From Bacillota bacterium (GTDB lineage Bacteria; Bacillota; Clostridia; Ch29): a DNA stretch of 60,923 nt. The DNA is taken from assembly GCA_013540605.1 (NCBI GenBank), contig JABVCK010000010.1, positions 1-60,923 on the forward strand. The letters run 5' to 3'. The notes below the pieces were generated by a model that saw only the letters and a program-made list of their open reading frames with translations, was not told the DNA's origin and searched no databases. Position numbers and translations under genes: made by a program. Numbering within the stretch: position 1 is the first letter of the stretch; each line of letters starts with the position of its first letter. Shown one piece after another: positions 25,819 to 53,803 of the stretch.

Positions 25819-25850
25819 GTTGAAGGGGGAAGCTACTGTTGCCAGGATAT

Positions 25851-26040: not shown

Positions 26041-27213
26041 ATGCCGGTTCATTTCGATTGTATTGTTGTCGGAGCAGGTCCTTCTGGATCCACCGCTGCC
26101 GGATGCCTTGCTGAGGGCGGGATGAGGGTCCTGCTGCTGGAAGGCGATAAACTTCCCAGAGAGAAACTGTGCGGAGGGCTTTTGTCCAGGAGGGCCAGGG
26201 AACAGATACCCTTTGACATCGACTATTACCTTACGGAGAACCGGAAAGTCAGGGATATAGAATACCATTCCGGATGGGGAATGGATGAATACAGAGGCAG
26301 GCTTGAACTTGGGTATATTATTGATAGAAGAACCTTTGACTATGAGCTGTCCAGGAAGGCAGAGGACCTTGGTGTTGAAGTGCTGGATTCGATGAAGGTA
26401 GACAGTGTCCGGCAAAAGGACTCATACTATATTGTCAGAAGCGGCAGGTATTCCTTTTCGTCCAGGTATATAATAGGGGCAGACGGCAGCCACAGCATTG
26501 TGTCAAGGGACCTGGGGTTTGGAACATATCTGGACAGCTATTTCTACGGGTTCGCCCTGGGCGTAAATATATCTTCGGAATCGGGAATTCCGAGCAGGTG
26601 CAGGATATATTCCCTGCCCATACCTACCGGCCTGGGCTGGTGTTTTAACGGGCCCCGCGAAATGAATGTAGGTTTGGGCGCCTGTACGCAGTTCAGTAAA
26701 AGGCTGACGAAAATGACCGAAGAATTCATCTCAGGAGTCCGAAAATCTACGGGCATGGACATCCCTTTCAGCAAACTTAAGGGCGGATTTCTTAAAACAG
26801 GAGGATGGAAAAGACGCATAGCTCATAGAGGCGCGTTTCTGGTAGGCGACGCCGCCGGGCTTGCCGAGCCCTTTTCGGGGGAAGGCCTTTATGCGGCAGT
26901 GATGAGCGGCAGGGAGGCAGCCGGTTTTATATTGAACCGCGAAAAGGGAGAAGGGGAAAACCACAAGGAGGAGTATTCCAGGACCATTTACAGGAGGCTG
27001 CTTAAGGAATACAGGCACTCAATCATCCTGTCTCTGTTCAGGCGGAGGCTGGAGGATATGGGATTGTGGGGGCAGGGCTACATAGGGGCAGGGATGATAG
27101 CAGGGATTATGCGGGGAGAGGAGTGCTACAGTTCAATAAACAAAACACTTCTTACGGGTCTTCTGAACAGGCAAAACCGGTGTTCTTTGAATGACAAGAG
27201 GCAGGATATATAA
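26041..27213 (+). CDS. Geranylgeranyl reductase family FAD-dependent oxidoreductase
   Basis: A 390-residue flavoprotein: N-terminal dinucleotide fold VVGAGPSGSTAAGCLAEGG, the CGGLLSRR segment of this family, the GADGSHSIVSRDLG motif, and GAFLVGDAAGLAEPFSGEGLYAAVMSG for FAD. Members reduce isoprenoid double bonds (archaeal lipids, chlorophyll tail, menaquinone side chain). With a UbiA/UbiD pair next to it, saturation of a quinone side chain is plausible but unproven. GAAAGGA before the ATG lies directly after repeat copy A, so any promoter must be inside or before that repeat. Confidence 0.83.
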   Translation: MPVHFDCIVVGAGPSGSTAAGCLAEGGMRVLLLEGDKLPREKLCGGLLSRRAREQIPFDIDYYLTENRKVRDIEYHSGWGMDEYRGRLELGYIIDRRTFDYELSRKAEDLGVEVLDSMKVDSVRQKDSYYIVRSGRYSFSSRYIIGADGSHSIVSRDLGFGTYLDSYFYGFALGVNISSESGIPSRCRIYSLPIPTGLGWCFNGPREMNVGLGACTQFSKRLTKMTEEFISGVRKSTGMDIPFSKLKGGFLKTGGWKRRIAHRGAFLVGDAAGLAEPFSGEGLYAAVMSGREAAGFILNREKGEGENHKEEYSRTIYRRLLKEYRHSIILSLFRRRLEDMGLWGQGYIGAGMIAGIMRGEECYSSINKTLLTGLLNRQNRCSLNDKRQDI

Positions 27214-27297: not shown

Positions 27298-28746
27298 ATG
27301 GCGTATAAAGACCTTCAACATTTCATAAGGGTTCTCGAAAAGGATGGTCAGTTGGTCCGAATCAAGACCGAGGTCGACCCCGTTCTTGAAATAACCGAGA
27401 TTACCGATAGGGTCAGCAAGAGCAATGGGCCGGCTTTGCTGTTCGAAAAGGTTAAGGGCTCGGACTATCCGGTCTTGATTAACTCTATGGGTTCATACGA
27501 GAGGATGAACCTCGCCCTGGAAGTGGACAGACTGGATGATATAGCGGAAGAGATAGAAGGGTTAATCAGTGAAGTCAGCCGCGATAGTCTCCTTGGCAAG
27601 ATCAAAATGCTGCCGAAGGCTATGCAGCTTGCGGGCATCTTTCCGAGGAGGGTTAAGGAAGCGCCCTGCCAGGAGGTTATTGAGCATGAGCCGGATTTGA
27701 ACAAGCTGCCCATACTTAAATGCTGGCCCGGTGACGGCGGCAGGTTCATCACGCTGCCCCTGGTTATAACCCGGGACCCTGATAGGGGAACCCTGAATAT
27801 GGGTATGTATAGGATGCAGGTTTATGATTCCCGGACAACCGGAATGCACTGGCACCTTCACAAGGACGGCAGGCGGAATTTTGAAAACCAGAAGAAAGCA
27901 GGGGACAGGAAGGTTATGGACGTATCCGTAGCTCTGGGGTGTGACCCGGCTGTCATCTATGCGGCCACCGCACCGCTGCCGGGAGAAATAAGTGAATTCC
28001 TCTTTGCGGGATTTTTGAGGAAGAAACCGGTAGAGCTGGTGAGGTGTGTAACCAACGACCTGGAAGTGCCCGCAAACGCCGAGTTTGTCCTCGAGGGATA
28101 CGTGGATTTTGACGACCTGAGGCTGGAGGGGCCCTTTGGAGACCATACGGGATATTATTCTCTTACCGACTACTATCCGGTTTTTCATGTGGAATGCATA
28201 ACCAGGAGAAAAAATCCCGTATACCCGGCAACGGTTGTCGGAAAGCCACCTATGGAGGACTGTTATCTTGGCAAGGCGACCGAAAGGATTTTTTTGCCTC
28301 TGTTGAAACTGTATCTGCCCGAGGTGCTGGACATCAACCTGCCGCTGGAGGGAGTATTTCACAACTGTGCCATAGTCTCCATAGACAAGAGATTTCCGGG
28401 TCAGGCAAAAAAGGTTATGAATGCAATATGGGGAATGGGACAGATGATGTTTACAAAAATGATAGTGGTGGTGGACAGGGATGTTGACCCCCATGACCTT
28501 TCTACGGTCGCGTGGAAGGTTTTCAACAACATTGATGCGGAAAGGGACCTTGTAATAATGGAAGGCCCTCTGGACGCCCTGGATCATTCGTCCCCTCTGC
28601 CCCATTACGGCCACAAGCTTGGGATCGATGCTACAAAGAAGTGGCCAGAGGAAGGACACACCAGGGAGTGGCCTGACGACATTGAAATGAGCTGGGAGAT
28701 AAAGGAAATGGTGGACAGGAAGTGGAAGGAATATGGTATTGAATAA
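27298..28746 (+). CDS. ubiD: UbiD family decarboxylase (menaquinone-type)
   Basis: A 482-residue prenylated-FMN-dependent decarboxylase. Recognised from LPILKCWPGDGGRFITLP, GMYRMQVYDSRTTGMHWHLHKDG, LEGPFGDHTGYYSLTDYYPVFHV and the C-terminal AMNAIWGMGQMMFTKMIVVVD. UbiD enzymes remove a carboxylate from aromatic or unsaturated acids; close relatives serve ubiquinone or futalosine-pathway menaquinone synthesis (MqnL). The direct overlap with a ubiA-type prenyltransferase supports quinone synthesis. A ubiX partner that makes the cofactor is not in the window. GGGGTGAG lies 5 nt before the ATG. Confidence 0.9.
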   Translation: MAYKDLQHFIRVLEKDGQLVRIKTEVDPVLEITEITDRVSKSNGPALLFEKVKGSDYPVLINSMGSYERMNLALEVDRLDDIAEEIEGLISEVSRDSLLGKIKMLPKAMQLAGIFPRRVKEAPCQEVIEHEPDLNKLPILKCWPGDGGRFITLPLVITRDPDRGTLNMGMYRMQVYDSRTTGMHWHLHKDGRRNFENQKKAGDRKVMDVSVALGCDPAVIYAATAPLPGEISEFLFAGFLRKKPVELVRCVTNDLEVPANAEFVLEGYVDFDDLRLEGPFGDHTGYYSLTDYYPVFHVECITRRKNPVYPATVVGKPPMEDCYLGKATERIFLPLLKLYLPEVLDINLPLEGVFHNCAIVSIDKRFPGQAKKVMNAIWGMGQMMFTKMIVVVDRDVDPHDLSTVAWKVFNNIDAERDLVIMEGPLDALDHSSPLPHYGHKLGIDATKKWPEEGHTREWPDDIEMSWEIKEMVDRKWKEYGIE

Positions 28747-29599
28747 GATAAAAACGATGGGGGAACTTGTTATGTTCAGGCATACTATATTTGCTCTGCC
28801 CTTTGCCCTTGTGGCGATGCTGGCGGCGGCCAGGGGCATTCCGCCTGCGGACAAGTTCTTCTGGATAATGGTGGCTATGATTGGGGCCAGGAACGGTGCC
28901 AACGCATTGAACAGGATCGTTGACAGGGAAATCGACGCGAAGAACCCTAGGACTGCCGGCAGGCATATTCCCCGCAAGGAAGTGAAGACATGGGAAGCAG
29001 CCCTGCTGACAGCGGTATGTTTTGCACTGCTTGCTGTCGCTGCTTATATGCTCGACCCCCTGTGCCTGAAGCTGCTTCCGGTTGCGCTGTTCATATTCTT
29101 TATCTACAATTACTCCAAGAGGTTTACATGGCTCAGTCATATGATACTGGGAGCAGCGCTGGGTGGAGCCCCCGTAGGCGCATGGATAGCCATAAGGGGT
29201 GTGATAGAGCTTCCGGTCCTGGTAATGGCGGCGGCTGTTACTTTGTGGGTTGCCGGTTTCGATATAATATATGCAACACAGGACATAGAATTTGACAGGA
29301 AAGAGGGGCTGCATTCGGTACCTGCCAGGTTTGGGCTGGACGCTGCTTTGAGAATAGCAGCTGCGTTTCACCTTATTTCTGTTGCAATGATGTTTAGCCT
29401 GGTATATTTTATGGACATGGGTATTATTTATGTAATAGGCATGGTGATTACCGGCGGCCTGTTTCTTTACGAACACCGTATAATTTCACCGGACAACCTG
29501 GAAAAGGTGAAGATTGCATCCTATAATGTCAATGAGCTGGTGGGCGTCGTATTTCTGATCTTCGGCTCCCTTGACGTATTATACCGGTTTGTTTTTTAG
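28733..29599 (+). CDS. ubiA: UbiA family prenyltransferase (4-hydroxybenzoate / MqnP / DmkA-like)
   Basis: A 288-residue membrane enzyme with about eight hydrophobic spans. The two Asp-rich sites that hold Mg and the prenyl diphosphate are visible: NRIVDREIDAKNPRTAGR (about 63-80) and YATQDIEFDRKEGLHSVPARFG (about 180-201). It joins a polyprenyl tail to an aromatic ring acid. It starts inside ubiD (14-nt overlap; GGAAGG upstream), so it is translationally coupled. It could supply the naphthoquinone used by the electron-transfer locus at 43-50 kb, where the DmkB-like prenyl synthase lies but no UbiA protein is found. Confidence 0.9.
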   Translation: MVLNKIKTMGELVMFRHTIFALPFALVAMLAAARGIPPADKFFWIMVAMIGARNGANALNRIVDREIDAKNPRTAGRHIPRKEVKTWEAALLTAVCFALLAVAAYMLDPLCLKLLPVALFIFFIYNYSKRFTWLSHMILGAALGGAPVGAWIAIRGVIELPVLVMAAAVTLWVAGFDIIYATQDIEFDRKEGLHSVPARFGLDAALRIAAAFHLISVAMMFSLVYFMDMGIIYVIGMVITGGLFLYEHRIISPDNLEKVKIASYNVNELVGVVFLIFGSLDVLYRFVF

Positions 29600-29623
29600 A
29601 AGAAAAAAGGAGGAATGTTTATT

Positions 29624-30571
29624 ATGTGGATGAAATATCTGTTTTTGACTGTAACTTTTATGCTTCTGGCGGGATTGACCGCCGCCTGCTATGGTCCTGG
29701 TGCATCGGATAAAAATGCCGCTCCGGCGCAGTTGAGCGTCGCCGTTATGCCGGATGTGGATTCCCTTCCGATTCTGCTGGCTGAAGAGCTTGGCTATTTC
29801 AATGAAGAGGGAGTGGATGTCCGGGTGGAGATGTTCACCAGTCCGGTGGAACGGGACAGCGCACTGCAGGCGGGACAGCTGGACGGGGCTATTTCGGATA
29901 TACTGGCGGTGGCATTTTTTGCAGATAAGGGATTTGACGTGAGGATAACATCAATGAGCGACGGCAGGTACTGCATTCTTGCCTCCAGGGACAGCGGCAT
30001 AACAAAAGCCGAAGACCTGAAGGGAGTTGAGATAGCGATGTCATCAAACACGATTATAGAATACGAGGTTGATAAGCTTCTTACGTCCGCAGGCCTTGAC
30101 AGCAGTGAGATAGCAAAGATTGCAATACCGAATATGCAGGTAAGAATGCAGATGCTGGAGGAGGGGAAGGTCAAGGCGGCCGGGATGCCCGAACCCCTTG
30201 CGACCCTGCAGATGTCGAAGGGTGCAAGGCTGATCGCGAGCAGCGAGGATATCGGGGAAGCCCCGGGGATAATCCTTTTTACCGGAGATGCAGTTGGCGG
30301 GAGAAAGGATGCGATAACGAAGTTTTATAGGGCGTACAACAGGGCCGCTGCTGAGATTAACAGCAACGGTGAAAAGCACAGGGAAATGCTGGTGAAGAAG
30401 GCCGGGTTTCCTGAGCAGGTCAGGGATACGATAGAGTTCCCGGAGTACAGGGAAGCGGAACTGCCTTCGGAGAAGCTGGTAAACGAGGTTATCGCCTGGA
30501 TGGTCGGCAAGGAGCTTATTGCCAACAGGCTCAACTATAATCAACTGGTAGACGAAAGCATACTGGAGTAG
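29624..30571 (+). CDS. ABC transporter substrate-binding lipoprotein (NitT/TauT, NMT1-like)
   Basis: About 315 residues. Lipoprotein signal with lipobox TAAC, then LSVAVMPDVDSLPILLAEELGYFNEEGVDV, the typical start of SsuA/ThiY/NMT1-type receptors, and GQLDGAISDILAV. ATG 29624 is best placed 9 nt after AGGAGGA; ATG 29615 touches the binding site. It belongs to one operon with ubiD-ubiA and its own ATPase and permease. The ligand is unknown: known relatives bind taurine, nitrate, thiamine precursors or aromatic acids. Position with ubiD/ubiA suggests an aromatic or quinone precursor; this is inference. Confidence 0.84.
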   Translation: MWMKYLFLTVTFMLLAGLTAACYGPGASDKNAAPAQLSVAVMPDVDSLPILLAEELGYFNEEGVDVRVEMFTSPVERDSALQAGQLDGAISDILAVAFFADKGFDVRITSMSDGRYCILASRDSGITKAEDLKGVEIAMSSNTIIEYEVDKLLTSAGLDSSEIAKIAIPNMQVRMQMLEEGKVKAAGMPEPLATLQMSKGARLIASSEDIGEAPGIILFTGDAVGGRKDAITKFYRAYNRAAAEINSNGEKHREMLVKKAGFPEQVRDTIEFPEYREAELPSEKLVNEVIAWMVGKELIANRLNYNQLVDESILE

Positions 30572-30575: not shown

Positions 30576-31289
30576 ATGCTTGAGGTAAAGAACGTAACGG
30601 TTTCTTACGGAGAATTTACCGCCCTGGGGGACATAAGCCTGAAGCTCAACAGGGGCGAAATATGTACGCTGCTTGGACCTTCCGGGTGCGGTAAGACCAC
30701 CCTTTTGTATACTATCGCGGGGCTGGTTAAGCAGAAGGCAGGAGAAATTGTTAAGGATGACAATGCCCTGAGAATGAGCCTCATTCCACAGCATTACGGA
30801 TTGCTGCCCTGGAAAAGGGCTGTTGATAACGTTGCACTCAGCCTGATAATTAAAGGCTGCGACAGAAGGAGTTCAAGGTTAAAAGCCCGGGGGTTATTGG
30901 CGGAGATGGGCTTATCGGGAGTTGAAGACAGGTTTCCGGGTCAGATGAGCGGCGGACAGAAGCAGAGGGTTGCCCTTGCACGCTCCCTTGTGTTTCAGCC
31001 CGACCTGCTTCTGATGGACGAGCCTTTCTCTTCCCTTGACCAGCTGACAAGGGAAGAGCTTCAGGAATTCCTGCTCATGCTCCACGAAAAGAATGAATTC
31101 ACCGTTTTAATGGTCACCCACAGCATAGAAGAAGCAGTCTATCTGGGTCAGAGGATAATAGTCATGGGCGGTGAACCGGGAAGGATACGGAGGGCGCTGC
31201 AGAACCCGCTGTGGGGAGTAAAGGATAAAAGGACCTCAGCCATGTACTACGAAGTATGCCGGCAAGTCAGGGGGTGCCTTGAGGTATGA
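30576..31289 (+). CDS. ABC transporter ATPase (SsuB/TauB/ThiZ-like)
   Basis: 237 residues: Walker A GPSGCGKTTLLYTIAGL, Q-loop SLIPQHYGLLPWK, signature MSGGQKQRVALARSLV, Walker B LLLMDEPFSSLD, H-loop VTHSIEEAV. It is the energy subunit of the importer formed with the receptor just upstream (4-bp gap) and the permease downstream (4-nt overlap). Confidence 0.9.
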   Translation: MLEVKNVTVSYGEFTALGDISLKLNRGEICTLLGPSGCGKTTLLYTIAGLVKQKAGEIVKDDNALRMSLIPQHYGLLPWKRAVDNVALSLIIKGCDRRSSRLKARGLLAEMGLSGVEDRFPGQMSGGQKQRVALARSLVFQPDLLLMDEPFSSLDQLTREELQEFLLMLHEKNEFTVLMVTHSIEEAVYLGQRIIVMGGEPGRIRRALQNPLWGVKDKRTSAMYYEVCRQVRGCLEV

Positions 31290-32026
31290 AGAGGATAGCC
31301 GTATACGGTTTAACGGGTATAATAATACTCCTGTTCTGGCACTTTCTGTCCATAATGGTGAATTCTCCGGTGATACCACGCCCTGTGGAAGTGGCCGGCG
31401 TCCTCAGCGGGAAGTTTGTTTCCAAGCTGATGCTCCATATTCTTTCCAGCACAAGAAGGATAATAATAGCCATAGCGGCAGCCTTTATCGTAGCGCTGCC
31501 TCTGGGTATCGGCGTAGGAAGGGTTAAGGTCCTTGACAGGGTCCTATCGCCGGTGCTGTACTTCTTCTATCCTGTGCCAAAGATTGCCTTTTTGCCCATT
31601 ATCCTTATCCTTGCCGGGCTTGGGGAAGCTTCAAAGCTGATACTTATTGGCATAATCGTTTTTTTTCACCTTGTAATAGCTGTAAGGGATGCGGCGGCGG
31701 GAACAAGCGATGAGCTTTTTTACATCCTTAGGGTCATGGGAGCAGGGTGGGAGCATTCAATTTTCCACATTATTATTCCTTCAATACTTCCGGCGGTATT
31801 TACAGCGCTCAGAATAAGCCTTGGGACAGCAATAGCCGTGCTGTTTTTTTCCGAGACCATCGTTACGAATACGGGTATAGGCTATTTGATTATGGACAGC
31901 TGGGTCAGGGTCAATTATCCGGAAATGTACGCTTCGATAGCAGGATTGAGTTTAATGGGGCTTTTGCTGTTCGGACTGTTGGACCTGTTGGAGGCAAAGC
32001 TTTGCGGATGGAAGCAGCATAGCTGA
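31286..32026 (+). CDS. ABC transporter permease (SsuC/TauC/ThiX-like)
   Basis: 246 residues with about six membrane spans. The EAA loop that docks on the ATPase reads ELFYILRVMGAGWEHSIFHIIIPSILPAVFTALRISLG. ATGA overlap with the ATPase gene shows coupling. It ends the ubiD-ubiA-importer operon; the two dispersed repeat families fill the space to fixC. Confidence 0.9.
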   Translation: MKRIAVYGLTGIIILLFWHFLSIMVNSPVIPRPVEVAGVLSGKFVSKLMLHILSSTRRIIIAIAAAFIVALPLGIGVGRVKVLDRVLSPVLYFFYPVPKIAFLPIILILAGLGEASKLILIGIIVFFHLVIAVRDAAAGTSDELFYILRVMGAGWEHSIFHIIIPSILPAVFTALRISLGTAIAVLFFSETIVTNTGIGYLIMDSWVRVNYPEMYASIAGLSLMGLLLFGLLDLLEAKLCGWKQHS

Positions 32027-32075: not shown

Positions 32076-32262
32076 GGGGACATTCCGCAGTTCAGTTTTT
32101 AGTTACCAGTTCCCAGTTGCCAGATGACAGACGTCAGAGCAAAGCTATAGGGTAAAAACCCAAAGGCATAACTCGGATACCTGTGATCTGTGATCTACGA
32201 ACTACCAACTACGAACTACGAACTACCAACTACCAACTACGAACTAGCAGCGGTGTGTCCCC
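32076..32262 (+). repeat. Dispersed palindrome GGGGACA-type, copy 2, split by heptamer repeat copy B
   Basis: The left half GGGGACATTCCGCAG (32076-32090) and right half GCAGCGGTGTGTCCCC (32247-32262) match the two ends of copies 1 and 4. Between them lies heptamer repeat B, so one mobile-like sequence is nested in the other. Confidence 0.75.
32101..32246 (+). repeat. Heptamer-built dispersed repeat, copy B
   Basis: Same architecture as copy A: AGTTACC AGTTCCC AGTTGCC AGATGAC AGACGTC, core with AGGGTAAAAACCCAAAGGC, then TGATCTG and a long run of CGAACTA/CCAACTA units. The core has changes (CAGAGCAAAGC, GGCATAACTC) that break the short stem possible in copy C. Confidence 0.88.
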
Positions 32263-32296
32263 TGACATTAATATGGTTTCACGGAGGGATTTTTTG

Positions 32297-33613
32297 ATGG
32301 GAAATGATAGATATGATGTTGTGGTGGTGGGCGCCGGGCCTGCCGGCAGTTCTGCAGCACTGCTCATGGCAAATAACAACCTTTCTGTAGCTATGCTGGA
32401 AAGGGGACCTTATCCCGGGAGCAAGAATATGAGCGGTGGCACCATTGCAAGCATGCCCTTCCAGGAGATTTTACCCGAATACTGGAATATAGATGGGATT
32501 CCCCTGGAAAGAAAGATTGTATCAGACGAGTTGTGGATGCTGGATAACGATTCAGCCGTAAAGATGGGGTTTAGCGGCAAGAAGTTCGGTTATGCCCCCT
32601 ATAATAAGTTCTCGATACTCCGGTACAAGTTTGACAAATGGTATGCAGATCAGGCTGTAGCCGCAGGAGCTAAGCTGTTCAACAACTGTCTTGCAATTGA
32701 CCTTGTGTACCATAAAACGGGACTGCTGTCAAAAAAGGTGGATGGGGTGGTTCTGGAGGGCGGAGATATAATTCATGCTGACCTCGTGGTGCTGGCAGAG
32801 GGTTCATCTGCCGCACTGACCCAAAAAATCGGTCTGAGGCAAAGGCTCAACCCTGCTGATATGACGCTTTATGTTAAAGAGGTCCTAGAGTTACCCTCGG
32901 GTAAAATAGAAGAGAGATTTAGTCTGGAAGGGGATGAGGGAGCGGTTATCGGAATGGTGGGATATCCCACTTCCCCGGCCATAGGCAAGGGTGGTATTTG
33001 GACCAATAAGGACTCCCTTTCCATAGTAGTGGGAGCATACTTGAATCAAATCGTAAATAAGGGGCTTAACCCACTGCAGTTGATGGAAAGGTTTAAAAGT
33101 CATCCCATGATAAAGAAGCTAATCGAAGGGGCAAAGCCGATAAAATATCTGGCGCATACCATACCAAAGGGTGGGTTCAAAAAAATCCCGACCCTAGTGG
33201 ATGACGGAGTGATTGTTGTCGGAGACGCAGCCGAGATGATAAGCGGTCGGAGGGGTATAGACCTTGCTATGATAACCGGTAAATTTGCTGCAGAAGCTGC
33301 CGCTCAGGCCTGCGCCCTGGACGATTACAGCAGGGAAACCCTTTCTTCCTATGTGAAAAGAATAAAGGGCTCGTTCTTCTATGAGAACATGAGAAAGGGC
33401 AAGAATGTAGAGGAGTATTTTAATACATACCAGGACTCGGATTTTCTAATAACCAAAGCGATGAACGACCTTGCCTTCAAATATTTCAAGCAGGACCTGG
33501 AAAACAACAAAATCAGGCTAAGAAAGATGATAGAGGAACTGAAGAACATGCAGCCGCTGCAAAAGACCGGCAAGGACTTATTGTATGGATTGCAAAACTG
33601 GGAGGTATGGTGA
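32297..33613 (+). CDS. fixC: FixC-like electron-transfer flavoprotein:quinone oxidoreductase
   Basis: About 438 residues of the ETF-QO/FixC family: FAD fold VVVVGAGPAGSSAALLMA, PGSKNMSGGTIA, GVIVVGDAAEMISGRRGIDLAMITGKFAAEAAAQA. FixC takes electrons from ETF (FixAB) and passes them to quinone, together with FixX. FixA/FixB are not in the window. ATG 32297 follows ACGGAGGGA by 6-7 nt; an upstream in-frame extension is only translated repeat B and is rejected. It overlaps fixX by one base. Confidence 0.9.
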   Translation: MGNDRYDVVVVGAGPAGSSAALLMANNNLSVAMLERGPYPGSKNMSGGTIASMPFQEILPEYWNIDGIPLERKIVSDELWMLDNDSAVKMGFSGKKFGYAPYNKFSILRYKFDKWYADQAVAAGAKLFNNCLAIDLVYHKTGLLSKKVDGVVLEGGDIIHADLVVLAEGSSAALTQKIGLRQRLNPADMTLYVKEVLELPSGKIEERFSLEGDEGAVIGMVGYPTSPAIGKGGIWTNKDSLSIVVGAYLNQIVNKGLNPLQLMERFKSHPMIKKLIEGAKPIKYLAHTIPKGGFKKIPTLVDDGVIVVGDAAEMISGRRGIDLAMITGKFAAEAAAQACALDDYSRETLSSYVKRIKGSFFYENMRKGKNVEEYFNTYQDSDFLITKAMNDLAFKYFKQDLENNKIRLRKMIEELKNMQPLQKTGKDLLYGLQNWEVW

Positions 33614-33894
33614 TGGGTAATTTTGCCAAATCCGATACAAACCCGCTGGAATATGTCAAAATAATACCCGATAGCAAATCCCACATCTTTATTAAGGACG
33701 ATGGTATATGCATAGAGGAATGCGAGAACAAACCGTGCACCTATTACTGCCCGACGAGGGTTTTCTACTGGGAGGATGACAGCATAAAAATCCTGTACAA
33801 GAGGTGTATAGAGTGCGGAGCGTGTCCCTTTGGCTGTCCCTATGACAACATTGCTTGGGAGAATCCCAGGGGAGGGTATGGCGTGGTTTATTGA
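33613..33894 (+). CDS. fixX: FixX-like ferredoxin
   Basis: About 93 residues, the small iron-sulfur partner of FixC. The pattern C-x3-C-x3-C near residues 33-46 (CIEECENKPCTYYCPTRVF) is followed by the 4Fe-4S set CIECGACPFGCP. ATG 33613 overlaps the fixC stop and has GGAGG at 7 nt; ATG 33607 lies too close to the same site. Confidence 0.92.
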   Translation: MGNFAKSDTNPLEYVKIIPDSKSHIFIKDDGICIEECENKPCTYYCPTRVFYWEDDSIKILYKRCIECGACPFGCPYDNIAWENPRGGYGVVY

Positions 33895-34826: not shown

Positions 34827-34845
34827 TTACAGGCGAAAGCAGCTT

Positions 34846-41975: not shown

Positions 41976-41978
41976 GTA

Positions 41979-43227: not shown

Positions 43228-44964
43228 TTATCTGTTATGCCATATTCTTTTTGTGACATTCCTCAGGAACGGAATCACATAGTGGTCAAGTCCAAAGGCC
43301 CTTCCTGCTCCGCCCATGCATGCAATTGAAGCTGCAAGGAACCAGTAGTCGTTAAGCCCGGTACTGAGGATGAAGTTAATATTCATCGCAACTCCTACAG
43401 CGGCGGCTATGAAGGTGAACAAACCTGCTATAAGCGCAAGGCCTATGCCTACTTCGGTGAATACTATCAGCTTCTGGAACAGCATGGCATTTGGAACAAG
43501 TATAGTGTCCACAATCCATGCGTACCAGCCCGGAGTATGGTCGCTTATCAACTGCATCATCGAAGCGCCGCTTGCAGCGTCTGCGGTTCCGGCGAGCATC
43601 TGATACTGGAACCACCCGTTGTGGTACTTTTCAAGACCGGACATAACCCACATGTATCCCAGGTACAGCCTCAGGGGCACCAGCCAGAAGTTGGCGGATT
43701 TAGCCGTAAAGTGTGGTCCCAGGAAGGTGGATTTTCTGGTGTTGTGAAGCAGTTGATGGTTTATATATTCAGCTATCAAAGTAAATCCGCCTATCCCGAA
43801 CAGGTAGTGCATGTTGACGATGTGTTTGAGCGCCGTTGCCAGGTATCCGGAAAGCTGTGGCATACCGCTCACCTTGGCGACAGCATACCTGCTCCCTATC
43901 GATACCATTACGCCGTGAAGGTTGAGTTTCATAGGCTTTTTATTCTTACCATCTATGTCAGCCAGCACATTATGTGCTGCACATTGAGCGGATTGCAGGG
44001 CTGATTCTACTAAAGCAGGCATTGGGCCCTTGCCTTCCTCGGGTTCAAAGTAGCAGTTATCGCCCACCGCGTAGACATTTGGATAATCTACGGTCTGCAT
44101 GAACTCGTTTACATCAAGCCTGCCCCTCCGGTTTGTCTTCAATCCCAGGTTAGCAGCGAAAGAGTTGCACTGGACTCCGCCGTTCCATATCAGGGTAAGA
44201 GTTTTAATTACCTCTCCGGACTTAAGGGTCAGGGAGTCTTCTTTAACCTCGGTGATTGGTGAACTTGTCAGAATCCTTACGCCTTTCCTTTCCAGGAAAG
44301 CAGCCGCTTTCTTTATCAGAGGATCGGGGAGGTTCGGAAGTATTTTGTCAAGGGCTTCAATAACGTACAGTTTTACTTCATTGCGGTTGATTCCATATTC
44401 ACGGCAAAGCTCATCCGCCCACTGGACCAACTCACCAACCGTTTCAATTCCGGTAAAACCTCCGCCGCCCACAACAAAGGTGAGAAGCTTTGCACGTTCC
44501 TCGGGATCCTTCTCTATGCTGGCCTTTTTAAACATCTTTTTAATATGGTCGTTAATCTTCAGTGCGTCCTCCATGGACCACAGTGTGAAAGAATGTTCTT
44601 CCATCCCGGGAATCCCGAAGAAGGTTGGTTCACTGCCGGTACCAAGAATCAGGTAGTCATATTCATAAGAACTATCTCCCGATTTCAGCACCTGATTAGC
44701 AAAATCTATGTTTTCGATTTTATCCTTTACGACCTTGACCTTGGTGTATTCAAATATCCTTTCAAGATTTATCATAAGTCCGTCCGGCGTCACCCTGTTA
44801 CCGGCAACCTCATGAAGTTCTGTCAGCAGGGTATGATATTCGTTTTTGTCGATAATTGTAACTTCAATATCGTTTCTCTTCTTGCTGTGGCGGTATATAT
44901 CAAGGGCTGCTTCAATACCGCCGTACCCTGCACCAAGAACAACAATTTTTTTTACTTGGCTCAT
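43228..44964 (-). CDS. ndh2: Type II NADH:quinone oxidoreductase with C-terminal DoxX-like membrane domain
   Basis: 578 residues. The N-terminal 400 are NDH-2: FAD site IVVLGAGYGGIEAALDI, NAD site FVVGGGGFTGIETVGEL, and VYAVGDNCYFEPEEGKGPMPALVESALQSAQ. From about 440 on, four hydrophobic segments (LYLGYMWVMSGLEKY..., VGIGLALIAGLFTFIAAAVGVAMNINFIL) resemble DoxX-type membrane proteins. It oxidises NADH and reduces membrane quinone without pumping. Listeria Ndh2 of the extracellular electron-transfer locus also carries a membrane tail. Divergent from the PplA-like lipoprotein gene, with GGAGGGAAT before its ATG. Confidence 0.88.
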   Translation of the reverse strand: MSQVKKIVVLGAGYGGIEAALDIYRHSKKRNDIEVTIIDKNEYHTLLTELHEVAGNRVTPDGLMINLERIFEYTKVKVVKDKIENIDFANQVLKSGDSSYEYDYLILGTGSEPTFFGIPGMEEHSFTLWSMEDALKINDHIKKMFKKASIEKDPEERAKLLTFVVGGGGFTGIETVGELVQWADELCREYGINRNEVKLYVIEALDKILPNLPDPLIKKAAAFLERKGVRILTSSPITEVKEDSLTLKSGEVIKTLTLIWNGGVQCNSFAANLGLKTNRRGRLDVNEFMQTVDYPNVYAVGDNCYFEPEEGKGPMPALVESALQSAQCAAHNVLADIDGKNKKPMKLNLHGVMVSIGSRYAVAKVSGMPQLSGYLATALKHIVNMHYLFGIGGFTLIAEYINHQLLHNTRKSTFLGPHFTAKSANFWLVPLRLYLGYMWVMSGLEKYHNGWFQYQMLAGTADAASGASMMQLISDHTPGWYAWIVDTILVPNAMLFQKLIVFTEVGIGLALIAGLFTFIAAAVGVAMNINFILSTGLNDYWFLAASIACMGGAGRAFGLDHYVIPFLRNVTKRIWHNR

Positions 44965-45029
44965 TGTATTCCCTCCTAAAATACTATAATATACGAAGTA
45001 ATAGTGATTATTAGTTAAAAACCATAATA

Positions 45030-45060
45030 ATTATAACATAATATTCACAAACATTGTCAA
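45030..45060 (-). promoter_or_regulatory. Possible promoter of ndh2
   Basis: On the minus strand TTGACA (45055-45060) and TATAAT (45030-45035) are separated by 19 bp, longer than optimal. The 410-bp AT-rich divergent region 44965-45374 holds no other feature I can identify besides this and the pplA promoter. Confidence 0.45.
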
Positions 45061-45281
45061 ATATATTTATCAAATTATTATTTGTAGCAGCATAAAAATT
45101 ATACGATATCTAGCAGATTTGTTATATTAGTGACAGTGAAATTACGCATACAATGAAATATTTGGTGTTTTCTTATAAGCATATACCCTGCATAGAAGCG
45201 GATAAACCTAAAATATAATACAGATGGTATATAATAAATGAAAATTAAATAATAAACATTCTTAACAGCAAATTTCTACTC

Positions 45282-45310
45282 TTGAAAAAATGGTGTTAAA
45301 ATGTTATCAT
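45282..45310 (+). promoter_or_regulatory. Promoter of the PplA-like lipoprotein gene
   Basis: TTGAAA (45282-45287) and TATCAT (45305-45310) are 17 bp apart, about 65 nt before the start codon. Confidence 0.6.
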
Positions 45311-45374
45311 TATAAAGTAGCTTGGAAAAACCTATATAGAACTATATTTTAATTTTAAAAATGGAGGAGAAACC

Positions 45375-46496
45375 ATGAAAAAAGTATTATCAATTTTTCT
45401 TGTACTTATTTTAACGCTTGCTGCGTTGGCCGGCTGTTCTTCACCGAGCACGCCTTCAAATCAACCACCCGCAGATCAAACACCGGCAGCCGGCACACCT
45501 GCAAATGGCGATGGCATTGTAAAAATGGGTCTCGGACACATAACCTCAATTGCCAAATCCGTGGATCTTGGAGTGGACAAGGATGGCAAGGATGTTCTCC
45601 CTGTAGGTCAGGTTGATACCGTTATTGCAGCCGTTGGCTTTGACAAGGACGGCAAAGTTGTCAAAGTGACCATTGACAATGCTCAGACCAGGGTGAATTT
45701 TGACAAGAACCTTCAGGTTACTTCCGACCTGGCTGCTGAATATAAAACAAAGGTTGAGCTTGGCGACGCATACGGCATGATCAGCGCTTCCCAGATTAAA
45801 AAGAACTGGTATCAGCAGATCGCCGAGCTTGAGAAGTGGATGATCGGTAAGACAGTGGATGAGATAAAGGCTATGAAGGTTAAGCAGCGTGACGATGCTC
45901 ACCCGGCCGTACCGGATGTTCCTGAGCTTACATCCCTTGTTACTATAACCGTTCATGAGTATATTGAAGCTGTTGAAGAGGCATATCATAATGCCGTTGA
46001 GGTTCAAGGGGACGCTGTGGAACTGGGCCTCGGACATGTAGTATCCATTGGAAAATCCAAAGGTTACAGTATGAAGGATGGCACCGAAACTCTGCCGGTT
46101 GCACAGGTTGATACCGTAATGGCTGCTACTGCATTCGACAAGGATGGCAAGGTTGTTCGCACTATTATAGACAATGCACAGACTAAAGTTGAATTCAGCA
46201 AGGAAGGCAAGGTAACCACAGACAAGAAGGGTGAATTCAAAACAAAGGTTGAGCTTGGCGACGCATACGGCATGATCAGCGCTTCCCAGATTAAAAAGAA
46301 CTGGTATCAGCAGATCGCCGAGCTTGAGAAGTGGATGATTGGCAAGACAGTGGATGAGATAAAGGCTATGAAGGTTAAGCAGCGTGACGATGCTCACCCG
46401 GCCGTACCGGATGTTCCTGAGCTTACATCCCTTGTTACTATAACCGTTCATGAGTATATTGAAGCTGTTGCGGAATCCTATGATAACGCAAAATAA
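45375..46496 (+). CDS. pplA: PplA-like lipoprotein with two tandem FMN-carrier domains
   Basis: 373 residues. Lipobox LAGC (Cys about 21), a Pro/Ala/Gln-rich linker to about 50, then two 165-residue repeats: GLGHITSIAKS...DTVIAAVGFDKDGKV...VELGDAYGMISASQIKKNWYQQ...ELTSLVTITVHEYIEAV. Each repeat ends with a Ser/Thr motif at the place where FMN-binding domains carry a threonine-linked FMN added by ApbE. This is the domain pattern of Listeria PplA, an extracellular flavoprotein that hands electrons to outside acceptors. Two apbE genes follow, in accord. GGAGGAG before the ATG. DNA of the two domains is nearly identical in their second halves. Confidence 0.83.
   Translation: MKKVLSIFLVLILTLAALAGCSSPSTPSNQPPADQTPAAGTPANGDGIVKMGLGHITSIAKSVDLGVDKDGKDVLPVGQVDTVIAAVGFDKDGKVVKVTIDNAQTRVNFDKNLQVTSDLAAEYKTKVELGDAYGMISASQIKKNWYQQIAELEKWMIGKTVDEIKAMKVKQRDDAHPAVPDVPELTSLVTITVHEYIEAVEEAYHNAVEVQGDAVELGLGHVVSIGKSKGYSMKDGTETLPVAQVDTVMAATAFDKDGKVVRTIIDNAQTKVEFSKEGKVTTDKKGEFKTKVELGDAYGMISASQIKKNWYQQIAELEKWMIGKTVDEIKAMKVKQRDDAHPAVPDVPELTSLVTITVHEYIEAVAESYDNAK
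45744..45975. repeat. 232-bp internal repeat of pplA, copy 1
   Basis: Matches 46239-46470 with two silent differences (offset 495 bp, 165 codons), although the first halves of the two domains have clearly diverged. Confidence 0.9.
46239..46470. repeat. 232-bp internal repeat of pplA, copy 2
   Basis: Second copy of 45744-45975. The sharp boundary between diverged and near-identical DNA suggests gene conversion between the two FMN-carrier domains. Confidence 0.9.
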
Positions 46497-46514
46497 GCAG
46501 TGATAGAAAGGTCA

Positions 46515-46562
46515 GGGGACACACCGCTGCTATGCAGGTATTCCTTGCCGCGGAATGTCCCC
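46515..46562 (-). repeat. Dispersed palindrome GGGGACA-type, copy 4
   Basis: In reverse orientation it reads GGGGACATTCCGCGGCAAGG ... GCAGCGGTGTGTCCCC and aligns along its whole length with copy 1 at 21732-21779. It lies 18 bp after the pplA stop. Confidence 0.85.
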
Positions 46563-46574
46563 ATTATACGCATT

Positions 46575-46609
46575 AAAACTCCCCCACTTGCAATGGGGGA
46601 GTTTTGTTT
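46575..46609 (+). terminator. Terminator after pplA
   Basis: AAAACTCCCCCA and TGGGGGAGTTTT form a 12-bp stem with a 7-nt loop and a following GTTT tract. The downstream apbE genes therefore need their own promoter or read-through. Confidence 0.82.
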
Positions 46610-46661
46610 GGGCTCTTGTTTAAGAGGGCGTCTTCTATTATTATAGATAAGGGTGATGTGT

Positions 46662-47753
46662 ATGAGAAGATTAACCGCAAAATTTATAGTAGTACTTTTG
46701 CTAGCGCTTCTTTTAACAGGCTGCCAGACAGAACCGAAAAACGAGTACAGCAAATATAGTGAAAGCTTTTTTGATACCTTTGACACCCTGGTAAATGTTG
46801 TTGCCTACACTAAAAGTGAGCAGGAGTTTAATGCCTATTTCCAGGAAATTCATGCACGATTTCAAGAACTTCATAAGATGTATGATATATATAACGATTA
46901 TGAGGGTATAAACAATATTAAGACGATAAACGATAATGCAGGCATAAAACCTGTAAAGGTTGACAGGGAGATAATAGACCTCATCCTTTTTGCCAAAGAG
47001 TGGTATAAACGCACGGACGGTCAAACAAATATCGCTATGGGTTCTGTACTGCGGATATGGCATGAATACCGCGAGCAAGGGCTATATGACCCCCCAAACG
47101 CCAAATTGCCTCCTATGGAGGACCTGCTGGATGCTGCGAAACATACGGATATAGATAAGGTAATAGTGGATGAAGAAAACAGTACGGTGTATCTCGCCGA
47201 TAAAAGGATGAGCCTTGACGTCGGTGCGGTGGCAAAGGGTTATGCAGTCGAGACCGTGGCAAAGGAAGTCATGGCTCAAGGGCTTGAATCAGGGATCATA
47301 AATGCGGGCGGTAATATACGGGTGATTGGGAAACCCCTTGATGGCATTCGTGAACGCTGGGGTATAGGCATACAGAATCCTGATAAGTCGATAATTTCCA
47401 ATAATGATGATAATCTTCTTGATACCGTTTTTGTCAATAACGCTTCGGTAGTCAGCAGCGGCGATTATCAAAGGTATTACATCGTGGACGGTAAGCTTGT
47501 TCACCATCTTATTGACCCAAAAACCCTTATGCCCGGAGAATATTACAGTGCGGTGACTATAGTAACAGAAGATTCAGGCCTGGCGGACCTGTTATCAACC
47601 GCTGTGTTCTTAATGCCCTACGAGCAAGGCCGTGCGCTTGTGGACAGCCTTGACGGGGTTGAGGCCGTATGGGTTATGCATGATGGAAAAACAGAGGCAA
47701 CCGACGGCATGAAAAAAATAATGAAAAGCAATGGCGCAACAGGTGCAAAATAG
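46662..47753 (+). CDS. fmnB: ApbE/FmnB FAD:protein FMN transferase lipoprotein (first copy)
   Basis: About 363 residues. Lipobox LTGC near residue 19, then the ApbE fold: FFDTFDTLVNVVAY, SLDVGAVAKGYAVETVAKEV, INAGGNIRVIG, VVSSGDYQRYY and HHLIDPKTLMPGEYYSAVTIV. ApbE proteins use FAD to attach FMN to a Thr of target proteins outside the membrane. The obvious target is the PplA-like lipoprotein just upstream. ATG 46662 has AAGGGTG 6 nt before it; GTG 46653 and ATG 46656 lie too near that site. Confidence 0.9.
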   Translation: MRRLTAKFIVVLLLALLLTGCQTEPKNEYSKYSESFFDTFDTLVNVVAYTKSEQEFNAYFQEIHARFQELHKMYDIYNDYEGINNIKTINDNAGIKPVKVDREIIDLILFAKEWYKRTDGQTNIAMGSVLRIWHEYREQGLYDPPNAKLPPMEDLLDAAKHTDIDKVIVDEENSTVYLADKRMSLDVGAVAKGYAVETVAKEVMAQGLESGIINAGGNIRVIGKPLDGIRERWGIGIQNPDKSIISNNDDNLLDTVFVNNASVVSSGDYQRYYIVDGKLVHHLIDPKTLMPGEYYSAVTIVTEDSGLADLLSTAVFLMPYEQGRALVDSLDGVEAVWVMHDGKTEATDGMKKIMKSNGATGAK

Positions 47754-47817
47754 GGGTATTAGTATTTAGTATTGACAATAATAATTAAGGACTATCGTAA
47801 AAAACGGGAGAAAAGCA

Positions 47818-48867
47818 ATGAAAATATGTATCAGGTTTTTTTTGATCTTTATATGCCTGTGCTTGCTTTTGACGACAGGGTGCCGGAGGGAGGAAGCCGC
47901 TCCGGGATATGAAAAGGTAGAGAAGACCGGCTATATGATGGGAACGGTGGTGACCCTCAAGGTCTATGTTGCTGACGCCGGTAAGGGCAATGAGGCAATT
48001 GACAAGGCCTTTGCAAGGATCGGAGAAATTGAGAGCCTTATGAGTCTGAATTCGGAAAACAGCGAAGTGGGCAGGATAAATGAAATGGCCGGTATAGAAC
48101 CGGTAAAGGTCAGCGATGACACCTTGAAGGTCATTCAAAAGGGCATTTACTATGGGGAGCTGTCAAACGGACTCTTTGACATCAGTGTGGGCCCCCTGGT
48201 CCAGCTGTGGGGAATAGGCACCGAGCATCCTAAGGTGCCCGGTGGATCTGACCTTGAGAAGGCGATAAGTCTGGTCGATTACAGGGATATAAAGGTTGAT
48301 GAAAAAAGCAGAGAGATATTCCTTGGCAAAGCGGGTATGGTAGTTGACCTTGGAGGGATTGCCAAAGGATATGCGGCGGATGAGGTAAAGAAAATAATGG
48401 TCGACGAAGGCATAGAATACGCTATAATCAATCTCGGTGGAAATGTGCTTGCCGTAGGGGGAAAATATGACGGTGGACCCTGGAATATCGGAATACAGGA
48501 CCCCTACGCACCCACCGGCAGTTCCATGGGAGTTGTAAGAATCGAGGACAAAACGGTTGTTACCTCAGGGGATTATGAGAGGTATTTTGAAGAAAACGGC
48601 AAACGTTATCATCATATACTGAATCCTAAAACCGGTTATCCGGAGGAAAACAGGATAAAGGGAGTTACAATCATCGCTTCTTCTTCCTTTGACGCCGATG
48701 CCCTTTCAACAACGGTGTTCCTGCTGGGAGTTGACAGAGGCTTAGAGCTGGTGGAGAAGCTGGATGGTGTTGAGGCCATTATGATTACCCACGATAGGGA
48801 AGTAATCGTATCCTCCGGCATCGGAGACACGTTCAGTATACAGAACAATAAATACAAAATGAAATAG
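47818..48867 (+). CDS. fmnB2: ApbE/FmnB FAD:protein FMN transferase lipoprotein (second copy)
   Basis: 349 residues, lipobox TTGC near residue 21. Motifs: GYMMGTVVTLKVYV, VDLGGIAKGYAADEVKKIM, INLGGNVLAVGG, VTSGDYERYFEENGKRYHHILNPKTGYPEEN, DADALSTTVFLLG. It is closer to typical ApbE sequences than the first copy, from which it is well diverged, so this is an old duplication or separate recruitment. Two enzymes may serve different acceptors or domains. GGGAGAAAAG precedes the ATG; 10 bp separate it from the eetB-like gene. Confidence 0.9.
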   Translation: MKICIRFFLIFICLCLLLTTGCRREEAAPGYEKVEKTGYMMGTVVTLKVYVADAGKGNEAIDKAFARIGEIESLMSLNSENSEVGRINEMAGIEPVKVSDDTLKVIQKGIYYGELSNGLFDISVGPLVQLWGIGTEHPKVPGGSDLEKAISLVDYRDIKVDEKSREIFLGKAGMVVDLGGIAKGYAADEVKKIMVDEGIEYAIINLGGNVLAVGGKYDGGPWNIGIQDPYAPTGSSMGVVRIEDKTVVTSGDYERYFEENGKRYHHILNPKTGYPEENRIKGVTIIASSSFDADALSTTVFLLGVDRGLELVEKLDGVEAIMITHDREVIVSSGIGDTFSIQNNKYKMK

Positions 48868-48877
48868 GTGAGGCATA

Positions 48878-49387
48878 ATGAAGGGCACTAAAAAACTTGC
48901 CGTGCTGGCCTTGTTTGTCTCTATGGCACTGGTACTTCATGTGGTGGAGAACCTTCTACCAATTCCATATATTGCTCCGGGCGTAAAACTGGGCCTTGCG
49001 AATATAGTGTCGCTGATGACTATAATTATATTCGGGTTTAAAGAGGCAATTGCTGTTGTGCTCCTACGTACTTTCCTGGGCTCCCTCCTCGGCGGAGTGC
49101 CGTCAGGCTTCTTCTTTAGCGCCGCCGGAGGTGTCCTGAGCACAGTAGTCATGTACATTATGTATACTTGGGTTGGAACGAAATTCAGCCTGGTCGGTAT
49201 AAGCGTTGTTGGGGCTATAGCCCACAATATCGGGCAGCTGTTTGTTGCAAGTCTTATTGTAGAAAATTTCGGATTATATGTCTATCTTCCGGTTCTAATG
49301 ATCTCCGCAGTAATTACAGGAACTTTCATAGGTATTACGGCAAATTATGCAGTGGGATTTATAAACAAGAATGTTGACTATGATTAA
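48878..49387 (+). CDS. eetB: Gx transporter family membrane protein (EetB-like; formerly heptaprenyl diphosphate synthase component I)
   Basis: 169 residues with about five hydrophobic segments. The family signature is LVLHVVENLLPIPYIAPGVKLGLANIVSLMTIIIFG, then LRTFLGSLLGGVPSGFFFSAAGG and SVVGAIAHNIGQLFVASLI. The old enzyme label came from its neighbour, the true prenyl synthase; the fold is that of a small transporter S-component-like protein. In Listeria the related EetB is needed for electron transfer to the cell surface. No NusG-II domain protein (EetA) is found beside it. AGGTGAGG is before the ATG. Confidence 0.82.
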   Translation: MKGTKKLAVLALFVSMALVLHVVENLLPIPYIAPGVKLGLANIVSLMTIIIFGFKEAIAVVLLRTFLGSLLGGVPSGFFFSAAGGVLSTVVMYIMYTWVGTKFSLVGISVVGAIAHNIGQLFVASLIVENFGLYVYLPVLMISAVITGTFIGITANYAVGFINKNVDYD

Positions 49388-49404
49388 AGGCGCAGGTGAT
49401 TATA

Positions 49405-50373
49405 TTGAATTTTTGGGAACAATATCCCTATTTATATAAAGGGCTTGACCGGGTGGAGAAAAAACTAAAACGCGAAGTGCGCTCCAGGAATGCAACAATT
49501 GAATCAATATTAGTCAGATTGGTTGATGCGGGGGGGAAACGCCTCCGGCCTGCATTGGTGCTTCTATGCGGCGGATATGGCGGTGTTGATGAGGACAAGC
49601 TTATATCGTTGGCCGCTTCTGTAGAGATGGTGCATATGGCTACATTAATCCACGACGATGTGATTGATAATGCAGATTACAGGCGGGGAATCGAAACGAC
49701 GCATAAGAAATGGGATACCCATACAGCCATATTTGCCGGGGATTATCTTTTGAGCAAAGCCTTTGGTATCATTACAGGGAATACGGTATTTGAAGATGCT
49801 TTCTTCGCAGCCAGGTCCTTCAGGCTGATATGTGAAGGCGAGATCGAACAATACTATTCAAGGAATAACGTAAATACAGATGTGAAGAGATACCTTGCAC
49901 GCATAAGGTATAAAACAGCGATGCTTTTTGCAATGGCTTGCAGTATTGGGGCAAACATTTCAGAGGTATCGAAAAGGGAAAAAATAGCGATGAAAAATTA
50001 TGGTCTCCATCTGGGGATGGCCTTCCAGATTAAAGATGATTTGCTTGATTTTCTATCCAGCCACGAGGCGCTGGGCAAACCCGTTATCAATGATCTGAAA
50101 CAGGGCATTTTTACCCTGCCGGTAATCTATGCCTTAAAGGACAGGAAGAATGGGAACAGGTTGAGAACAATCTTGGAAAATGGCGAATTGGACGAAGGAA
50201 GTATAACCGAAATAATCGAAATCATCAAGCAGGGGCATGCGATTGAAAAAACCATATCCTTGCAGGACAGGTTCAAAAAAAAGGCTGAAGCTGATATAAA
50301 ACAGCTCAGGCAGTGCGAGCATACCCGGATTATGGGTGACCTTCTTGAATACGTCACGGGAAGACACAACTAA
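49405..50373 (+). CDS. dmkB: Polyprenyl diphosphate synthase (heptaprenyl synthase large subunit / DmkB-like)
   Basis: About 322 residues of the trans-prenyltransferase family. First Asp-rich motif in LIHDDVIDNADYRRG, lysine/arginine segment GGKRLRPALVLLCGG, and second Asp-rich motif in FQIKDDLLDFL. It makes the long prenyl chain for quinone. In the electron-transfer locus this corresponds to DmkB. TTG 49405 lies 6 nt after AGGTG; GTG 49396 overlaps that site. It closes the operon with the eetB-like and apbE genes. Confidence 0.88.
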   Translation: MNFWEQYPYLYKGLDRVEKKLKREVRSRNATIESILVRLVDAGGKRLRPALVLLCGGYGGVDEDKLISLAASVEMVHMATLIHDDVIDNADYRRGIETTHKKWDTHTAIFAGDYLLSKAFGIITGNTVFEDAFFAARSFRLICEGEIEQYYSRNNVNTDVKRYLARIRYKTAMLFAMACSIGANISEVSKREKIAMKNYGLHLGMAFQIKDDLLDFLSSHEALGKPVINDLKQGIFTLPVIYALKDRKNGNRLRTILENGELDEGSITEIIEIIKQGHAIEKTISLQDRFKKKAEADIKQLRQCEHTRIMGDLLEYVTGRHN

Positions 50374-51025: not shown

Positions 51026-51028
51026 TTC

Positions 51029-53227: not shown

Positions 53228-53256
53228 TTGGCAATAATATGCTACAATGATATAAT
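53228..53256 (+). promoter_or_regulatory. Promoter of the ECF S-component gene
   Basis: TTGGCA (53228-53233) and consensus TATAAT (53251-53256) are 17 bp apart. The leader is about 30 nt, which leaves no room for a riboswitch. Confidence 0.8.
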
Positions 53257-53293
53257 CTATTTGATTCAAGTAATGCTAAGGAGGCAAACAACT

Positions 53294-53803
53294 ATGAGCA
53301 ATACTCAGAAGCTTGTAATAGCAGCACTCTTGACCGCCTTAGTTACGGTGGCAACTATGGCTTTTCAGGTGCCGATTCCTGCGACCAAGGGTTATATAAA
53401 CTTAGGAGACACGGTAATATTTATAGCTGCTCTGCTGCTGGGACCGAAGTACGGCGCTCTGGCCGGGGGAGTGGGTTCAGCACTGGCAGACCTCCTTTCA
53501 CCATACGCCGCATGGGCTCCCTTTACCCTTGTAATCAAGGGGATCGAAGGCTTTATTGTCGGATATATTCTATATAAAGCGTTCTCGGGTGAGAGCAATT
53601 TGAAATCCAGGGTTGCCGCAATGGCGTTGGGCGGTCTGTGGATGGTCGTGGGCTATTTTGCTGCGGAAGTACTGCTGTACGGTACCCCCGCTGCAATAGT
53701 TGAACTGCCCGGCAATCTGGTGCAGGCTTCGGGCAGCGCCCTTATAGCACTGCCTGTTGTTGCAGTAATGTCGAGGATCAACGTATTTAAAAGTGTAAAC
53801 TAG
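53294..53803 (+). CDS. ECF transporter S component
   Basis: 169 residues with about five or six membrane spans: KLVIAALLTALVTVATMAFQVPIPATKGYINLGDTVIFIAALLLGPKYGALAGGVGSALADLL, the typical substrate-binding subunit of energy-coupling factor vitamin importers (HmpT/ThiW/PanT-like). The ligand is not predictable, and no ECF ATPases are nearby, so it would use a shared module. AAGGAGG lies 9 nt before ATG 53294. Confidence 0.85.
   Translation: MSNTQKLVIAALLTALVTVATMAFQVPIPATKGYINLGDTVIFIAALLLGPKYGALAGGVGSALADLLSPYAAWAPFTLVIKGIEGFIVGYILYKAFSGESNLKSRVAAMALGGLWMVVGYFAAEVLLYGTPAAIVELPGNLVQASGSALIALPVVAVMSRINVFKSVN

Follow-up and report, generated by a model that had tools for sequence, protein, structure and literature searches.

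A FLEET-type electron transfer locus with a divergent flavin lipoprotein and a linked candidate quinone-salvage block in a Clostridia-class bacterium

In Listeria monocytogenes, flavin-based extracellular electron transfer (FLEET) involves Ndh2, PplA, FmnA/B, EetA/B and DmkA/B (Light et al., 2018, as described in PMC9973259 and PMC8906456). In this organism, EetB is the subunit of an energy-coupling factor (ECF) transporter that exports flavin adenine dinucleotide (FAD), whereas EetA is dispensable for extracellular electron transfer (PMC9973259). A gene set of this type was analyzed at positions 43228-50373 of a 60,923-nt stretch of DNA (the window), which is contig C12 (JABVCK010000010.1) of the genome assembly GCA_013540605.1 (3.35 Mb, 36 contigs, 99.55% complete) of a Clostridia-class Bacillota bacterium. 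Judged by homology and conserved gene order, it is an intact FLEET-type extracellular electron transfer locus and thus of a widespread, known kind; its divergent flavin carrier is unusual, and the hypothesis of a linked quinone salvage is what most deserves a test.

The electron export locus

The locus consists of six contiguous genes with intact reading frames:

43228..44964, minus strand: ndh2, type II NADH dehydrogenase with a membrane tail (Pyr_redox_2 7.8e-42, DoxD 1.9e-6)
45375..46496, plus strand: lipoprotein with two FMN-bind2-like domains and an invariant lipobox C21 (profile and structure comparison)
46653..47753, plus strand: apbE1, FAD:protein flavin mononucleotide (FMN) transferase of the lipoprotein-companion clade (Pfam ApbE 2.8e-67)
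47818..48867, plus strand: apbE2, FmnB-like flavin transferase (Pfam ApbE 2.9e-95; Listeria FmnB 7esa E=2.6e-85)
48878..49387, plus strand: eetB, putative ECF S-like FAD exporter subunit, its role taken by analogy from the Listeria family (PF07456 1.4e-50)
49396..50373, plus strand: DmkB-like polyprenyl diphosphate synthase, pps (PF00348 1.5e-68)

This contiguous set, with family matches far beyond chance, had been described in the initial annotation and is kept in sequenced relatives. The opposite direction of ndh2, the EetB-like transporter and the DmkB-like prenyl synthase were confirmed as well, and the assignment to a spore-forming Clostridia-class host agrees with a germination protease gene at 57669. 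The proposed likeness to the flavin electron-export genes of Listeria is supported by gene-by-gene homology and conserved linkage. For Ndh2 (578 amino acids), the best structures are 4nwz (E=1.7e-75) and YjlD (E about 1e-75), and its C-terminal tail (about residues 427-568) is DoxD/DoxX-like with hydrophobic segments. The polyprenyl synthase reaches 280 bits against the model GerC3_HepT, which is under the cut-off of that model.

Shared with the Listeria system are Ndh2 with its membrane tail, a lipoprotein with two flavin domains, an FmnB-like ApbE, EetB and the prenyl synthase. In contrast to Listeria, the window has a further ApbE from a different clade, EetA is encoded elsewhere, UbiA (MqnP-like, 13.6 kb away) and UbiD are found instead of a linked DmkA, and FixCX is located nearby. 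EetA had been reported as not present, which holds for the locus but not for the genome, as a genome search identified a candidate NusG_II protein at C11:169353, the only match. Because EetA can be dispensed with in Listeria, its absence from the locus is no obstacle to the FLEET assignment. No ECF-T (FmnA) gene was identified within the locus; three CbiQ-family proteins are encoded elsewhere in the genome.

A search of 245 Clostridia-class genomes placed lipoprotein homologues in about 25 of them. The best 80 matches of the genome scan yielded 79 named loci; among the 76 in which the lipoprotein was recognised, 63 have an ApbE gene nearby, mostly immediately downstream. In 64 of the 79, the stretch seen around the lipoprotein-apbE1 pair contains no ndh2, which counts against an export function and shows that electrons can also reach the pair from other donors. 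The same number favors the alternative of a role in redox protection or with a cell-surface redox enzyme for the lipoprotein and its ApbE, with ndh2 as a chance neighbour. However, in 14-15 loci, including those of Ruminiclostridium, Sinanaerobacter and Caproiciproducens, the pair lies within a cluster with ndh2, the polyprenyl synthase, a UbiA-family (DmkA-like) enzyme, EetA and EetB, and ndh2 is 83-88% conserved beside the pair in close relatives, so that this alternative was judged unlikely. A FLEET-type function was accepted on the basis of these clusters and of the order fixC-fixX-ndh2-lipoprotein-apbE1-apbE2-eetB-pps kept in the close relative L056. A plasmid search for a named PplA of Listeria, Enterococcus or Lactobacillus returned Acetoanaerobium only.

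A decayed or silent remnant would be in line with a 300-nt repeat, 90% identical between the two lipoprotein domains, which points to recent recombination, and with a 9-kb block with glycosyltransferase genes that parts fixX from ndh2. As the reading frames are all intact, the motifs conserved and the gene order kept between genera, this explanation is very improbable. The locus extends FLEET to another anaerobe, with a flavin carrier of a divergent type that would escape Pfam-based surveys.

The divergent lipoprotein and its flavin transferases

The lipoprotein (373 amino acids) consists of two domains of ~165 amino acids at a spacing of about 165 residues. Two codons were predicted to encode FMN acceptors:

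45942..45944, plus strand: T190 of the SLVT motif in domain 1, aligned to the last position of the 2kzx SGAT
46437..46439, plus strand: T355 of the SLVT motif in domain 2, aligned on the 2kzx SGAT in the same way

The pairs V189/T190 and V354/T355 and the lipobox C21 are invariant in 28 lipoprotein homologues, as is V142/T143 across an alignment of 52 single domains. A profile of these 52 domains matched one PDB sequence, 2kzx (E=0.001), with S-x-V-T (SSVT) placed on the S-G-A-T of 2kzx, and the aligned piece of 2kzx itself matches FMN_bind (PF04205). The AlphaFold (AF2) model of the lipoprotein has a predicted local distance difference test (pLDDT) score of 89.7, and 2kzx was the best among the chains compared with VIA-align (Z 8.1, root-mean-square deviation 4.3, 117 of 131 residues).

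Several results weigh against an FMN-binding role. Pfam FMN_bind fails to match any of the 28 homologues; the G-A of the usual acceptor site [S/T]GA[S/T] is missing, as [S/T]xVT with an invariant T stands in its place throughout the family; and the Z score of 8.1 is modest by the tool's own note. For the latter reason, the kinship with FMN_bind rests on sequence and structure together. Furthermore, the lipoprotein has chance-level matches only in Pfam and NCBIfam, is absent from the genome's own FMN_bind matches, and its two-domain model gave no Foldseek match at E<=0.001. Structural matches to IscU (Z 5-7) were taken as a shared arrangement only.

The initial annotation had called this protein a two-domain PplA-like lipoprotein and had tied the assignment to a similarity with PplA or FMN-binding domains. 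The lipobox and the two domains could be verified, whereas a PplA-like domain could not; on Pfam alone there is no similarity to FMN-binding domains, but it was found by profile and structure comparison. From these comparisons, the lipoprotein is regarded as a remote FMN_bind relative and not a canonical PplA, with T190 and T355 as predicted covalent FMN sites. In Listeria PplA, the corresponding residues T143 and T265 are 122 apart, in contrast to the 165 residues between the SxVT sites of the window protein. By its size, its pairing and the link to 2kzx, the lipoprotein appears to fit the FMN-bind2 type (Huang et al., 2024, PMC10979944), in which it was placed from the published description. 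According to the available text of that source, such tandem proteins have domains of ~160 amino acids in even numbers; the SxVT motif and the separate ApbE clade are features of the window that this text does not give. Two domains are present here, and the lipoprotein homologue of Sedimentibacter hydroxybenzoicus (L092, 9.6 kb), with 786 amino acids about twice the usual length, is consistent with four flavin domains.

The genome also encodes, far from the locus, a second lipoprotein with two canonical FMN_bind domains and TGAT sites (L003:937-1767, contig C1). From its sequence, it appears to be the more literal equivalent of PplA.

The two ApbE proteins had been interpreted as a duplicated FmnB, which was not upheld, as they belong to distinct subfamilies. 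The active-site serine, histidine and aspartate of Listeria FmnB (PMC8906456) are conserved in apbE2, while apbE1 matches 7esa with E=4.7e-35. In a tree of 85 ApbE sequences, nine including apbE2 form a group (support 1.0) set apart from the 76 that include apbE1. Members of the apbE1 clade accompany the divergent lipoprotein and adjoin it in most loci, whereas those of the apbE2 clade are mostly located in ndh2/pps/ubiD/ubiA clusters, some with canonical FMN_bind lipoproteins (L165). The locus therefore joins two modules and does not contain one duplicated gene.

The quinone block and its candidate importer

The initial annotation had placed the UbiA enzyme about 14 kb from the locus. The measured distance is 13.6 kb, though the gene is part of a separate six-gene block (26041-32026):

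26041..27213, plus strand: ggr, geranylgeranyl-reductase-family protein, first gene of the block (TIGR02032 above cut-off)
27298..28746, plus strand: ubiD/mqnL, prenylated-aromatic decarboxylase (TIGR03701 663.7 bits, cut-off 495.9)
28733..29599, plus strand: ubiA/mqnP-like prenyltransferase (PF01040 8.5e-58; TIGR01475 above cut-off)
29615..30571, plus strand: ssuA-like lipoprotein, substrate-binding component of a candidate importer of quinone precursors (NMT1 1.1e-21)
30576..31289, plus strand: ssuB-like ATP-binding cassette (ABC) ATPase (PF00005 1.6e-29)
31286..32026, plus strand: ssuC-like permease (PF00528 8.4e-18)

The combination resembles the predicted late futalosine enzymes MqnP/MqnL/MqnM (PMC4746308) in that UbiA-, UbiD- and UbiX-type genes occur in one cluster. 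It differs from the futalosine pathway by the absence of MqnA/D, and in the own genome also of MqnE, with an SsuABC-like transporter in their place.

A UbiA search of 291 Clostridia-class genomes revealed 19 carriers including the own genome. The loci of the other 18 repeatedly show ubiD and ubiA together with an SsuABC-like transporter, and often ubiX as well. With L058 and Caproiciproducens faecalis L132, these make up 20 UbiA loci, of which 19 have SsuA or SsuC. Among 97 loci, orthologues of SsuA (orthologous group A2, 30 invariant columns) are present in 16 of the 20 with UbiA and in none of the 77 without; the p-value of 6e-15 is descriptive, as the two sets of loci were collected around different genes and include short contigs. 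Electron-export genes were found in seven of the 18 loci (L165, L166, L169, L171, L172, L174 and L178) and also in L058 and L132, i.e., in 9 of 20. A plasmid search with UbiA gave distant proteins only, with at most 32.6% identity among the matches listed.

Profile searches of the own genome found no MqnA/MqnD and no MqnE match. The check was made for 23 genomes, several of them single-contig, namely the own genome, two relatives, the 18 UbiA carriers, L058 and L132. None has MenB at the curated cut-off, with weaker MenB-like matches of 34-169 bits in some, and no credible MqnA/MqnD was found in the 23. Weak PF02621 matches occur in eight; five of these proteins have lipoprotein-type signal peptides and were for this reason not taken as MqnA/MqnD, and the remaining three (L180, L182 and L183) were not clearly resolved. 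A search of the own genome thus revealed none of the known routes to the quinone head group, with MqnA/D and MqnE absent and no MenB at the cut-off.

The head group is therefore probably imported. In the simplest reading of the gene content, the SsuABC-like importer probably takes up a soluble aromatic acid, which UbiA would prenylate and UbiD would decarboxylate. Going by the UbiD family, 1,4-dihydroxy-6-naphthoate would be the best guess for this acid.

A different quinone might be made by the ubiD-ubiA-ubiX enzymes from a local or imported benzoic acid, e.g., 4-hydroxybenzoate, instead of a naphthoic acid. In ubiquinone synthesis, UbiA and UbiD enzymes use 4-hydroxybenzoate. However, the score of UbiD lies above the cut-off of TIGR03701, the curated family of futalosine-pathway decarboxylases, and UbiA scores near the MqnP models, though under their strict cut-offs. 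The benzoic acid alternative was accordingly considered possible but rather improbable.

The main rival to the import of a quinone precursor is a role of the transporter in the uptake of a flavin, like that of RibXY, or of a thiamine precursor; its place beside ubiA and ubiD would then reflect the demand of UbiD for prenylated FMN and of ApbE for FAD. Like SsuA, the flavin-binding RibY falls into the COG0715 sulfonate/nitrate/taurine class (PMC4418817), and the nearest Foldseek neighbours of the SsuA model include Thi5 and PqqT besides SsuA; due to its medium confidence (pLDDT 72.8), the model was not used to infer the ligand. On the other hand, 17 ubi-ssu loci and the window showed neither an FMN nor a thiamine pyrophosphate riboswitch, a RibU is already encoded in the window, and many ubi-ssu loci are without electron-export genes in the stretch seen, which makes a special flavin demand less likely. 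Little probability was therefore given to flavin or thiamine import.

Two results weigh against the import of a quinone head group for electron export. No UbiX was seen within the window, while a genome-wide search for UbiX was not made, and the two closest relatives keep the export locus but have no UbiA at E<=1e-40. These relatives must obtain quinone otherwise, so that the salvage block is no general requirement. In L036, L037 and L056, the aldolase gene is directly followed by fixC without ggr-ubiD-ubiA-ssuABC between them, and the block is thus extra in this genome.

More generally, the conserved ubiD-ubiA-ubiX genes with the SsuABC-like importer might indicate that quinone-less Clostridia import a soluble precursor made by their neighbours, add the tail and feed the resulting quinone into flavin-based electron export; the idea was put forward tentatively, as somewhat more apt to fail than to hold. 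By analogy, it would resemble the electron transfer of the quinone auxotroph Lactiplantibacillus plantarum, whose export relies on precursors from other microbes and whose quinone uptake pathway is unidentified (PMC10746273), but here a candidate ABC importer is linked. Transporters of menaquinone precursors should exist and remain to be annotated (PMC4746308). If the idea is true, the SsuABC-like transporter would be the missing quinone-precursor importer. No report of a ubiD-ubiA-ssuABC module was found in the literature within the limits of the library searched. With an ABC importer linked to these genes in Clostridia that lack any known synthesis of the head group, there is a concrete candidate gene set, by which quinone cross-feeding between anaerobes becomes directly testable. 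In this respect, the quinone block is of more importance than the FLEET locus itself.

Taken as the whole explanation, a FLEET-type path with an FMN-loaded surface lipoprotein and an imported quinone head group was considered likely. Ndh2, and possibly FixCX too, would pass electrons to membrane (demethyl)menaquinone, and the quinol would reduce the surface lipoprotein, whose two covalent FMNs would pass them on to outside acceptors; as a possible example of these, the initial annotation had named iron oxides. FAD would be exported by EetB, whose ECF partners are encoded in other parts of the genome, and apbE1, and perhaps apbE2, would attach FMN to T190 and T355. The polyprenyl synthase would make the quinone tail, and the head group would be obtained through the importer, UbiA and UbiD as described above.

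Neighbouring genes and repeats

Further features of the window are located around the two gene blocks:

25848..25987, plus strand: ~140-bp palindromic repeat at the left edge of the quinone block (family D4)
32098..32237, plus strand: ~140-bp palindromic repeat at the right edge of the quinone block (family D4)
32183..33613, plus strand: fixC, electron-transfer flavoprotein (ETF)-quinone-oxidoreductase-like flavoprotein (ETFQO_UQ-bd 4.1e-7; FixC subfamily 242 bits)
33607..33894, plus strand: fixX, ferredoxin-like partner of fixC (PF05187 8.6e-8)
53228..53803, plus strand: RibU-type ECF riboflavin transporter S component (PF07155 4.8e-47)

The ~140-bp repeat is an imperfect palindrome with a third copy at 51026-51165. 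All three copies have the same orientation and degenerate 7-base tails, and 0 occurrences of the 40-base core are expected by chance. No known RNA family was found in the repeat with Rfam, and miRNA matches were attributed to chance.

fixC is kept beside ndh2 in L036, L037 and L056. In L056, fixC-fixX directly adjoin ndh2, which suggests that electrons may also enter the quinone pool by way of ETF. In the window, a ~9-kb block (33944-43052) with glycosyltransferase, DNRLRE/DUF6385 and methyltransferase genes lies between fixX and ndh2 and is missing there in relatives; it carries a 300-nt direct repeat, 100% identical, at 35787 and 37597.

Directly downstream of the polyprenyl synthase, an ATC-hydrolase-family gene (50546-51025) is located, which is kept in L056, and the linkage of the RibU gene, 3 kb beyond the polyprenyl synthase, is retained in the same relative. 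Upstream of the quinone block, mtnA, an amidohydrolase (deoxyadenosine/methylthioadenosine (MTA) deaminase-like), an MTA phosphorylase and a class II aldolase form a nucleoside-salvage set (21942-25764), which adjoins fixC-ndh2 in the relatives L036, L037 and L056.

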